A DNA stretch of 64,000 nt from Candidatus Fusicatenibacter intestinigallinarum (GTDB taxonomy: Bacteria > Bacillota > Clostridia > Lachnospirales > Lachnospiraceae). Position 1 is the stretch's first letter. Each line of letters opens with the position of its first letter. Positions 29,271 through 32,692 of this stretch are shown piece by piece. The DNA lies in NCBI GenBank assembly GCA_019119555.1, contig DWWU01000019.1:23259-87258 (forward strand), in the 5' to 3' direction. A model generated the notes under the pieces. That model was not told the DNA's origin. It saw nothing but the letters and a program-made list of their open reading frames with translations, and searched no databases. Both the position numbers and the translations under genes were made by a program.

Positions 29271-29930
29271 TCAGTCATATACAGAATCCTGTTCCCATTT
29301 CAGAAATTCTCCGGTGTCTGCGCTGATTTCGAACTCGTACTCCGTGTTGTTGTAAATGATTTTTCCTTCGTAAATCAGGCGGCCGTCGTCTCTGTCAAGT
29401 TTGATGCGGATATCGCTGTCGGAAGCTCCATCCACTCTGGCAAGGGCTGAGGCTCTGGCGTCTGCCTCAGAAACTGCTGTCTGCGTGTTGGGATCCACGT
29501 AATCTTCATCGATTTCGTAATCCGTTTTCAGAATCTGTCCGTCGTCTGCTTTGATATCGTATTCATACTCTTTTCCTCCGACACCGAAGTCGACCTCATA
29601 AACGGAGATGCCGTCGTCGTAATCTTTCTTTACATTCAGGTATGTCAGATCTGCTTCCTGCACCTGCGCATGGTCAAGCGCGATCTGTTTTGCCTCTTCT
29701 TCCGTGATACCTGTGGTTTCGCCGGTCTGTGTCGATGAGGTCTGGGAAGGAACGTCCGGAGTGACGATCGCGGAGGCGGAAAGAGTATTCTGACCGGAGG
29801 TGCTTGTGGTCCCTGACTGTGTGACGGTGGTCCCGGATGTGGAGGACTGTGAGGGGGACGTTCCGCATGCGGTTACGGAAAGCGCCAGGATAGCTGCTGC
29901 TGCGAGGGATACTAATAATTTTTTCTTCAT
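29271..29930 (-). CDS. PepSY-domain lipoprotein
   Basis: Lipobox LSVTACGT; repeated PepSY elements (ITEEEAKQIALDHA...VSEADARASALARV...GKIIYNNTEYEFEISADTGEFLKWE). Confidence 0.85.
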   Translation of the reverse strand: MKKKLLVSLAAAAILALSVTACGTSPSQSSTSGTTVTQSGTTSTSGQNTLSASAIVTPDVPSQTSSTQTGETTGITEEEAKQIALDHAQVQEADLTYLNVKKDYDDGISVYEVDFGVGGKEYEYDIKADDGQILKTDYEIDEDYVDPNTQTAVSEADARASALARVDGASDSDIRIKLDRDDGRLIYEGKIIYNNTEYEFEISADTGEFLKWEQDSVYD

Positions 29931-30086: not shown

Positions 30087-30220
30087 AAAAAAGGAGGGCC
30101 GGGGCGTGGGCCCCGGCAGTTATGAAAAAGAAAAAATGTTATATAAAATGGTGTAATGGCTATTGAGTAACAACAGCAGCAACTTTCTGTTGTCCTCTTT
30201 CTGTTTACAAATTCAGTATA
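30087..30220 (-). ncRNA. Candidate small RNA, copy 1 (alternative: plus-strand peptide MKKKKCYIKWCNGY at 30122-30166)
   Basis: Minus strand ACATTC-N17-TATACT promoter block (30215-30243), 8-bp GC hairpin 30098-30117, CCTCC then TTTTTT. Confidence 0.4.
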
Positions 30221-30308
30221 TATGGAAAATATGTTCAGAATGTGTCCGAATACTGAAGGTTTTGTGAAGAAAAAGTGACCATTCTGCCGCAACATTCCGC
30301 CGTAACAT

Positions 30309-30476
30309 GGAGGTGCCGGAGTCTGGTGGGACTCCGGCATTTGTGAAAAAGAAAGTGATGTATGTAAAGGAAATAACTTGGGTGGGAACAGCAATTCAGG
30401 AAATCATCAAATATGTGCCGGTCTGATGTCCGGCTGAACAACTATCTGCCGTTCCTCTGTTGATATCTACAGTATA
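30309..30476 (-). ncRNA. Candidate small RNA, copy 2 (alternative: plus-strand peptide MKKKVMYVKEITWVGTAIQEIIKYVPV at 30343-30426)
   Basis: Same promoter block (30471-30499), 10-bp hairpin 30314-30339, CCTCC; no T-run. Confidence 0.3.
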
Positions 30477-30542
30477 GACAGAAAATGTGTTCAGAATGTG
30501 TCGGAAGGATAAAGGATTTCTGAAGAGTAAATGAAAAATTAT

Positions 30543-30570
30543 GTAACAGTTCAGCGGGCTGAACTGTCAC
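30543..30570. repeat. Module A palindrome
   Basis: GTAACAGTTCAGCGGGCTGAACTGTCAC. Confidence 0.8.
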
Positions 30571-30624
30571 AAAATTATGAAAGCCTGCCGCCTGTCCGAG
30601 GTTTCCGTTCTGCTGCCGGCGGGT

Positions 30625-32016
30625 TTACTCTGTGCCGGAGACCTCAGGTCCGGAGGAATCGGGCGGCTGTGTCAGCGGCAGCCGGAGTGTGAACTCGGTT
30701 CCGATGCCTTCCAGGCTTTGCACCTGGATATCGCCGTGGTGGGCGCGGACGATCCAGCGAACCAGCGGCAGCCCGAGTCCGGCGCCCTGGCGGCTGTCGG
30801 AGCGGGAGGGATCTGCCTGGTAAAAGCGCTCCCAGATATGAGGGAGATGCTCCTTCGAGATTCCGATTCCATTGTCTTTGACTGAAATGTTGGCGTATTC
30901 TCCGTCGACAGTCATCGTTACTTCGGTCCATCCGTGTTCCCGCCCATAGCGGATCGCATTGGTCAGGAGATTCTCGAACAGGCGGATCATCATGGTCTCA
31001 TCGGCGGTCAGGAGAACGTCGGGAGCAAGGCTGGAACGAAGCTCAATCTGCTTTTCGGCGGCGCTTTCCTGCAGCTCCTCAAGAATAATGCCCAGCAGCT
31101 CGGTGAGATTTACCTGTTCAAAATGGAGCGGCTGGCGGTTCTGATCAGAGCGGGAGAGAAGGAGCAGCTGGGAGTTCATCTTGGCCATACCGTTTGCCCT
31201 GGCCTGTATGATTTCCAGTTCCTGACGAATTTCCTCCGGGAGATTCTTTTGGTCCAGCAGATATTCACAGTGAGACAGAATTACCGCCACAGGCGTGCGC
31301 AGCTCATGAGACACATCGGAGGTGAATTGCCGCTCCCTCTGGAACGCGTTCTCCAGACTGGAAAGCATCTGATTGAAGCATTCCGCCAGCCGGCGAAATT
31401 CGTCTCTGCCGCGGGGCAGAGGAATCCTCTTGGAAAGATCAGAACCTTCCTGAATCTCCTGGACGGTTCTGATCATTGTGTTGACCGGACGCAGGGTTCT
31501 GCCGATAAACAGGTATCCGAAGACGGCGGCGAGAATCACCAGCGCAGGGAGAATGACCAGGGAGGACCGGAGCAGAATCTGCATACTCTGTTCTGCGTCT
31601 GTGACGGACAGGATGCCTCTCACGAACAGAGAGCCGTATCCGTCAATGGTGTGAACGGCGTCGAAGACGTACCATCGGGTACTGCCGTCGTTGATCGTCT
31701 GGAGGTTTCCGTCCTGGAAGGCAGGACGGGCGGAAAACGAGTAGGGCAGCCGCCCGTAGATAAATTTCCCGCTGGAATTGTAGACGGACATATAGATACC
31801 GTTGTCCACATCCATCAGGTTGGAATCGATGAACAGTTCCTGGCCGTTCCAGGAGATATCTTCCAGACTGTCATAGACGCGATTTTTTATCTGCTGCTGG
31901 ACAGAGGAGAGAAGTTCGCTGCTGCTGATCGACAGAAGAATCGCCACAAGAAGGCTGACCAGCAGCGTCATGAAGCATGCATACAACAGGTTTAATTTCC
32001 ATTTGACAGAACGCAA
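30625..32016 (-). CDS. Sensor histidine kinase
   Basis: HAMP; VSHELRTPVAVILSHCEYLL; NLLTNAIRYG; DNGIGISKEHLPHIWERFYQ; GAGLGLPLVRWI. Confidence 0.95.
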   Translation of the reverse strand: MRSVKWKLNLLYACFMTLLVSLLVAILLSISSSELLSSVQQQIKNRVYDSLEDISWNGQELFIDSNLMDVDNGIYMSVYNSSGKFIYGRLPYSFSARPAFQDGNLQTINDGSTRWYVFDAVHTIDGYGSLFVRGILSVTDAEQSMQILLRSSLVILPALVILAAVFGYLFIGRTLRPVNTMIRTVQEIQEGSDLSKRIPLPRGRDEFRRLAECFNQMLSSLENAFQRERQFTSDVSHELRTPVAVILSHCEYLLDQKNLPEEIRQELEIIQARANGMAKMNSQLLLLSRSDQNRQPLHFEQVNLTELLGIILEELQESAAEKQIELRSSLAPDVLLTADETMMIRLFENLLTNAIRYGREHGWTEVTMTVDGEYANISVKDNGIGISKEHLPHIWERFYQADPSRSDSRQGAGLGLPLVRWIVRAHHGDIQVQSLEGIGTEFTLRLPLTQPPDSSGPEVSGTE

Positions 32017-32017
32017 A

Positions 32018-32692
32018 CTACACCTCCGCTTTCAGAACGTATCCGGCTCCGCGCACGGTGTGGATCAGTTTCGGCTCGAAATTCTGGTCCAGCTTTTTCC
32101 GGAGATAACGGATATAGACGTCGACGACGTTGGAGCCGCCGTAATAATCATAGTTCCAGATATGCTGTTCGATTTTTTCTCTGGACAGCACGATCCCCTG
32201 ATTCAGAATCAGATAGCGCAGGACGGCGAATTCCTTGCTGGACAGGGAGATTTCCGTGTCGCCGCGAAATACCCGGTGGGAATCCAGGTAGACGGTTAGG
32301 TTCGCGGCGCGGCAGACATTGTCGCTGGCTGAGGTGTGCTTTCTGAGCATGACGCGGATACGCGCCAGCAGTTCCTCAAAGGCAAACGGTTTCACCAGAT
32401 AGTCGTCCGCGCCGGCGTCCAGTCCGACCACACGGTCTTCAATGGTGTCGCGGGCCGTCAGAAGAAGCACGGGAACCCGGTTCCCGCCTGTGCGCAGCTC
32501 CCGGAGGACGGACAGACCGTCCTTTTTCGGCATCATGATATCAAGGATTACGGCGTCGTATTCCGCCATTTCCAGACAGGCCAGCGCTTCTTCCCCGTCC
32601 AGACATGCATCGACACTGTAAGAGTTTTCTTCCAGCCGCTTTTTCAGCAGACGGTTCAGATCTTTTTCATTTTCCGCAATTAAAATTCTCAT
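32018..32692 (-). CDS. OmpR/PhoB-family response regulator
   Basis: MRILIAENEKDLNRLLKKRLEENSY..., DIMMPKKDGL, winged-helix C-terminus; start at 32692. Confidence 0.95.
   Translation of the reverse strand: MRILIAENEKDLNRLLKKRLEENSYSVDACLDGEEALACLEMAEYDAVILDIMMPKKDGLSVLRELRTGGNRVPVLLLTARDTIEDRVVGLDAGADDYLVKPFAFEELLARIRVMLRKHTSASDNVCRAANLTVYLDSHRVFRGDTEISLSSKEFAVLRYLILNQGIVLSREKIEQHIWNYDYYGGSNVVDVYIRYLRKKLDQNFEPKLIHTVRGAGYVLKAEV

Follow-up and report, generated by a model that had tools for sequence, protein, structure and literature searches.

Tandem small RNA genes with an anti-start motif and an anti-SD motif on either side of a hairpin: a putative csRNA-like family of Lachnospiraceae under a promoter type shared with htrA-like genes

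A pair of intergenic units in the window (the whole 64,000-nt stretch analysed, which belongs to the 2.5-Mb draft genome of a gut bacterium of the Lachnospiraceae) quite probably represents a tandemly duplicated gene for a trans-acting small RNA (sRNA), with two diverged copies, each expressed from its own activator-dependent promoter, induced together with htrA and blocking ribosome entry at target mRNAs. To our knowledge, hardly anything has been mapped of post-transcriptional regulation among the Clostridia that dominate the gut, and no sRNA work on Lachnospiraceae was found in the literature searched. An earlier note, made from the sequence letters, had described the locus as a tandem duplication, and every element that it listed was found at the position given there (Table 1). 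It had offered two readings, of which minus-strand sRNAs of 120–150 nt, csRNA-like, with an anti-SD CCUCC and under response-regulator control, is well supported by the comparative data. The pair is flanked by genes for a sensor kinase and a PepSY lipoprotein, and pair and genes alike are on the minus strand. The terminator half after the kinase gene (30530–30571) is a dispersed palindromic repeat with matches on many contigs of the genus.

Table 1. Features of the sRNA locus and its neighbours (window coordinates)
Feature	Position	Strand	Details
GGAGG	30093–30097 and 30309–30313	+	sequence
GC hairpin, downstream copy	30098–30117		GCCGGGGC-GTGG-GCCCCGGC
GC hairpin, upstream copy	30314–30339		TGCCGGAGTC-N6-GACTCCGGCA
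A6	30087–30092	+	T6 on the minus strand; end of downstream copy
Promoter, upstream copy	30470–30524	-	TTCAGA-N5-TTTATC-N5-GACACA-N5-AACACA, 11-bp register; 9 bp; -10 TATACT (30476–30471)
Promoter, downstream copy	30214–30268	-	TTCACA-N5-TTCAGT-N5-GACACA-N5-AACATA; 9 bp; TATACT (30220–30215)
Upstream sRNA (putative)	30309–30464	-	ca. 156 nt, with the 5' end placed according to the -10; 5' stem 30455–30446 with 30394–30385; linker; anti-start CUUUCUUUUUCAC (30355–30343); hairpin 30339–30314; CCUCC 30313–30309; no U run; R1 match holds by construction
Downstream sRNA (putative)	30087–30208	-	ca. 122 nt, 5' end inferred; 5' hairpin around 30194–30169; invariant linker; anti-start CAUUUUUUCUUUUUCAU (30138–30122); hairpin 30117–30098; CCUCC 30097–30093; U6 30092–30087
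Terminator-like hairpin 3' of kinase gene	30542–30571	-	separates the kinase operon from the sRNA promoters
Sensor kinase gene	30625–32016	-	neighbour, context
OmpR-family response regulator gene	32018–32692	-	neighbour, context
PepSY-domain lipoprotein gene	29271–29930	-	Pfam PF03413, E = 1.3e-19

Both copies recur at 82–83% identity in G002, G003 and G005, which with the window's own genome make four Fusicatenibacter-clade genomes. In the four-species alignment, each unit opens with the promoter block and closes with the hairpin-CCTCC(-T run) on the minus strand, and conservation extends from the promoter as far as the minus-strand T run. Within the downstream copy, 40 bases (30160–30121) are invariant, and only 0%–10% of the flank beyond 30080 is. 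Because conservation spans the promoter to the T run and the flank past 30080 is variable, it is only for the minus strand that a conserved promoter is present. This bears directly on the other reading of the earlier note, in which the plus strand would carry genes for two small MKKK peptides with SD and start codon bridged by the hairpin. The arrangement GGAGG-hairpin-ATG/GTG does occur on the plus strand, and MKKKKCYIKWCNG[YF] is kept in the downstream copy of the four species. However, the frames of 54 family members range from 5 to 59 aa and differ in sequence, the frame of the upstream copy is shifted within the clade, the plus-strand frames have nothing conserved upstream of them, and the conserved promoter lies at the far end and serves the opposite strand. 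The only common residues, MKKK, are imposed by the anti-start motif; the peptide reading was therefore rejected as very improbable. A chance repeat, or a dispersed repeat element of promoter-like composition, is hardly credible: although palindromic repeats adjoin the locus at 30530–30571, such an origin does not fit the covariation, the fixed promoter register and the recurrence across the family in unrelated gene neighbourhoods.

Both minus-strand RNAs were predicted to fold into a 5' hairpin, a long unpaired linker and a 3' hairpin, with z-scores against shuffles of -5.5 (downstream sRNA) and -3.7 (upstream sRNA). The linker, which lies between the 5' hairpin and the GC hairpin, reads CUUUCUUUUUCAY in both units, and the anti-start motif is the complement of (A/G)UGAAAAAG. 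Predicted unpaired probabilities averaged 0.79 for the anti-start motif and 0.69 for CCUCC, and 55% for the whole RNAs. The stem differences between the copies had been taken as compensated, and indeed, among nine sequences, both partners are altered in 3 of 10 pairs; in the 3' stem of 35 family members, 8 of 9 pairs do so, with a covariation score of 0.486 versus 0.165 ± 0.019 in shuffles. The 3' hairpin stands between anti-AUG and anti-SD in all family members, with a CAU-to-stem spacing of 1–7 nt (mostly 2–4). CCTCC directly follows the hairpin in both window copies, as previously described, and the family-wide gap from stem to anti-SD is 0–1 nt.

Intrinsic terminators do not usually have a CCUCC placed between stem and U run. 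The T6 end attributed to the first copy is present, and a U run occurs only in that copy (30087–30268); in each of the four species, the upstream copy reads CCUCCAU and lacks a full U tract. Because CCUCC is kept where the U run has been lost, we argue that the anti-SD is not merely a part of the terminator. The 3' end given for the upstream copy is tentative, and transcription may read into the second unit. Hairpin and U run are found together in most members of the family. A canonical member is about 80–90 nt long, with a small 5' hairpin (AAAGG..CCUUU, AAAGC..GCUUU or AAAAG..CUUUU), a linker in which CUUUUUCAU occurs once or twice, GCCGG..CCGGC, CCUCC and Us; the window copies are long-5'-hairpin versions of this form. 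In G002, a large insertion occupies the 5'-hairpin loop of the upstream copy, and the basal stem is kept.

In the predicted folds of the downstream copy, a 5' purine stretch can pair with the 3' CCUCC, which may mask the anti-SD. The 5' AGAGGA is complementary to the CCUCC tail of its own copy and of the other, so that sRNA–sRNA pairing is possible, and the RNAs might act chiefly on a protein or sponge another RNA, with the sequence resembling an anti-translation-start motif serving that end. We consider this improbable, since the strict order and spacing of anti-start and anti-SD fit mRNA translation starts better, as do the independent motifs of this kind in two other sRNA classes (B and C).

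A covariance search, suggested in the earlier note, recovered a widespread putative sRNA family. The first model comprised the 3' module alone, from nine sequences and with the promoter excluded; it matched 40 of 397 Lachnospiraceae genomes, and the same promoter register was found at 54–56 of the 58 matches retrieved. A model of promoter plus RNA matched 153 of 200 Lachnospiraceae genomes, often with 2–8 and up to 11 copies per genome. Outside the family, about eight genomes matched among 392 drawn from the class (roughly 366 of them other Clostridia), all at weak E-values from models whose E-values are rough. An exact pattern was present in 106 stretches of named genomes, all titled Lachnospiraceae, their genera, or broader Clostridia or Firmicutes bins. 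Against Rfam 15, no family reached the gathering score over the sRNAs, and nothing credible appeared at E ≤ 1. No published description of the family was found, with the large catalogue PMC8040213, whose unnamed RNA motifs from microbiomes could already include the structure, lying outside the comparison. Within Rfam 15 and the literature searched, the putative sRNA family is thus undescribed, and the earlier remark that neither reading matched a known family stands to the same extent.

Gene neighbours of 80 named loci were shared only within clades, and the RNAs are therefore taken to be trans-acting. In the window's own genome, a third and a fourth family copy lie on contigs C22 and C33, unlinked to the window pair. 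Tandem family pairs were also seen in two genomes of another genus (g29; L098:2787–3132 and L099:2104–2449), at a great distance from whatever is related to the contig of the window kinase.

The promoter block shared by the two window copies on the minus strand, reported earlier, was confirmed. Its direct repeats are present but had been described as 10-bp units; they are degenerate, four TTCACA-like hexamers in 11-bp register. Across about 54 family promoters, four such hexamers with 11-bp spacing end 9 bp above TATANT. A matrix of this promoter scored 52.9 at the upstream and 52.5 at the downstream copy, both of which belonged to its training set. When 448 kb of the own genome were scanned, each of the six top-scoring matrix sites belonged to an sRNA, and the reversed matrix gave nothing above 12. 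The own genome would carry at least six sRNA genes that combine one stress-type promoter with complementarity to ribosome-binding sites and start codons, judging from sequence. The strict four-hexamer pattern was too narrow; a pattern search returned about 78 sites in 20 genomes and none with the reversed pattern, and many of the outputs inspected are small RNAs.

Two other anti-ribosome-site sRNA classes carry the same box, with matrix scores of 25–49 and none in the training set. The second class contains GGATAGTTGATTAACCACTCACTATCTCCCCCCTCAT and GATAGTTGATTAACCACTCACTATC-TCCCCCCTCAT followed by a terminator (own genome L331:5820, plus strand; L153, L158, L167, L178, L180 and L361–L370); an exact-type pattern of it was found in 10 of 200 Lachnospiraceae genomes, sometimes in two copies. 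The third class ends in TTTTTTCATAATAGCC..GGCACTCCTCAT, also given as TTTTTTCATAATAGCC..GGC-ACTCCTCAT (own genome L339:7963, plus strand; L152, L160, L174, L181, L182 and L184). In G003 and G005, a Fur/PerR-like gene follows the third class downstream.

Among protein outputs, HtrA-like serine proteases stand out most clearly, assigned from sequence motifs without a profile search, with the box directly upstream of the gene in four genera (L169, L172, L176 and L179). Matrix scores of 31–42 were obtained at the htrA-like genes of G021, G370, G300 and G140, all outside the training set, and no two-component system adjoins htrA among the listed ORFs of the four genera. HtrA is the classic output of CiaRH, CssRS and LisRK, and a box shared with htrA is what a regulon of that type would show. 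Because htrA and multicopy anti-SD sRNAs are together under CiaRH/LisRK-type systems, the regulon would, by analogy, be an envelope-stress regulon. The likeness of TTCACA to PhoP/PhoB-type repeats had raised the idea of a Pho regulon, which was rejected: the box-driven genes are sRNAs and htrA, not pst, and the literature gave it no support.

OmpR-family activators typically use hexamer repeats with an 11-bp period whose end is about 10 bp away from the -10, and the promoter layout points to an OmpR-family response-regulator site replacing the -35. An obvious candidate is the adjacent two-component system, whose regulator would bind the hexamers and whose operon, or the PepSY gene, would receive feedback from the RNAs. 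In the own genome, G002 and G003, the tandem copies lie 3' of the kinase gene in one orientation, G005 has them nearby, and an OmpR-family regulator suits 11-bp repeats. Nevertheless, no full-length kinase relative was found in 11 of the 18 genomes searched (17 of the 18 bearing the sRNAs), including G001 of the same genus; the order response regulator–kinase–PepSY occurs without the sRNAs in G034, with a similar order in other genomes; and the unlinked sRNA copies of the own genome have the same promoter type. The adjacency is thus regarded as local to the clade. Even there the linkage loosens, since in G005 the kinase gene and the sRNA pair have about 1.3 kb of other sequence between them (L006, 667–1982). 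The link to this system implied in the earlier note is therefore weak; that the system owns the sRNAs is rather unlikely, and it is probably not their general regulator. Among the matches listed, the adjacent response regulator fell below every NCBIfam equivalog cut-off. A universal WalR-like system (L319) is a candidate regulator.

Translation starts are the sites at which the sRNAs would act. Many genes should match by complementarity to the SD alone. In a sample of 448 kb of the own genome (254 genes), the sRNA tails, comprising the anti-start and anti-SD parts, paired with translation starts better than shuffled tails, as the earlier note had proposed to examine (-7.9 versus -6.7 ± 0.4 and -10.9 versus -8.8 ± 0.5 kcal/mol). 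The best predicted targets of both copies fall in a cluster of signal-peptide proteins on contig C33 (L336:1500–4700), with AYFTTY/ALTYYS motifs that look TasA-like by eye and no TasA-type domain by Pfam. In two sister species, the predicted target site reads GAGGAGGG-N8-ATGAAAAAGAAAAAA, and its match to the downstream copy covers 15 nt and, in addition, the SD. Predicted secreted proteins made up 32% of the best targets versus 22% of the 254 genes, a small excess that is not significant.

Taken with the promoter type, these predictions suggest the following course. Under envelope stress, a response regulator would act at the four TTCACA-like hexamers of each copy's own promoter and induce the sRNAs together with htrA and the other sRNAs of the regulon. 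Each RNA would present a 5' hairpin, a single-stranded pyrimidine-rich linker with the anti-start end, a GC-rich 3' hairpin and the anti-SD CCUCC. On a target mRNA, the anti-SD part could then pair with the SD and the anti-start part with the start codon, while the 3' hairpin would loop out across from the SD–AUG spacer. Ribosome entry would be blocked, and translation initiation stopped, by several redundant sRNAs. Control by an envelope-stress response regulator, with several redundant sRNAs blocking translation initiation, is the most likely account. A wider version remains tentative, and we would not favour it at present: a family-wide regulon of gut Lachnospiraceae whose envelope-stress regulator yields mostly sRNAs, and in which the sRNA family described here clamps start codon and SD at once across the hairpin (a three-way junction) and brakes, as a class, mRNAs beginning with AUGAAAAAG, often for secreted or surface proteins such as the TasA-like cluster.

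The nearest known counterparts are the streptococcal csRNAs of the CiaRH system, several redundant short RNAs per genome expressed from response-regulator promoters, whose CiaR box (TTTAAG-N5-TTTAAG, with NTTAAG allowed as first hexamer) has an 11-bp period and lies about 10 nt above the -10; they form two stem-loops with anti-SD and anti-AUG in the unpaired sequence between them, and their loci are dispersed and sometimes tandem, as with csRNA1-1/1-2 of S. sanguinis (PMC3091779, PMC8186281). HtrA belongs to the CiaRH regulon, and in other Firmicutes its control lies with CiaRH, CssRS or LisRK (PMC12826053). The Lachnospiraceae sRNAs are likewise intergenic and multicopy, with a terminator in most members, an 11-bp promoter period, two stem-loops, anti-SD plus anti-AUG, and htrA in the regulon. 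Unlike the csRNAs, they have a TTCACA-like box of four hexamers (some single positions resemble TTTAAG), a 3' hairpin between anti-AUG and anti-SD, (A/G)UGAAAAAG as shared target motif, unrelated sequences and a host other than Streptococcus.

LhrC1–5 of Listeria monocytogenes are also multicopy and redundant; all depend on LisRK, which controls htrA as well, and their CU-rich motifs bind the SD region of a surface-protein mRNA, with UCCC motifs in loop A, the linker and the terminator loop (PMC4132741). In contrast to these three UCCC sites in loops and linker, the window copies have one CCUCC, after the 3' stem, and they differ in sequence, in promoter and in their single split anti-start/anti-SD. 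RsaE and FsrA represent the C-rich-motif (UCCC) anti-SD pairing logic of low-GC Gram-positives (PMC4132741), which the Lachnospiraceae sRNAs appear to share, whereas their C-rich motif lies 3' of a hairpin and is joined with an anti-start motif, and their promoter is unrelated. CssRS of B. subtilis provides two-component control of htrA in envelope/secretion stress, and in the part of the source available it is described without mention of an sRNA arm, unlike the regulon proposed here (PMC12826053).

If this account is true, an envelope-stress programme resembling that of the csRNAs operates in most Lachnospiraceae, Blautia, Fusicatenibacter and Eisenbergiella among them; it would produce largely sRNAs, together with HtrA, and apparently evolved apart from the streptococcal one. 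With the promoter matrix and the covariance model, the regulon and its targets would be directly searchable, and the hairpin-split anti-start/anti-SD layout would be a testable new pairing geometry. Among the weak matches in other Clostridia families, L325 and L326 carry CUUUUUCAUAAAUUYUUCCUC-type sequences, in which anti-start and anti-SD are contiguous with no hairpin between them; this contiguous layout outside Lachnospiraceae is possibly the ancestral one. Repeated TTCATA boxes were observed at L324 and L329.
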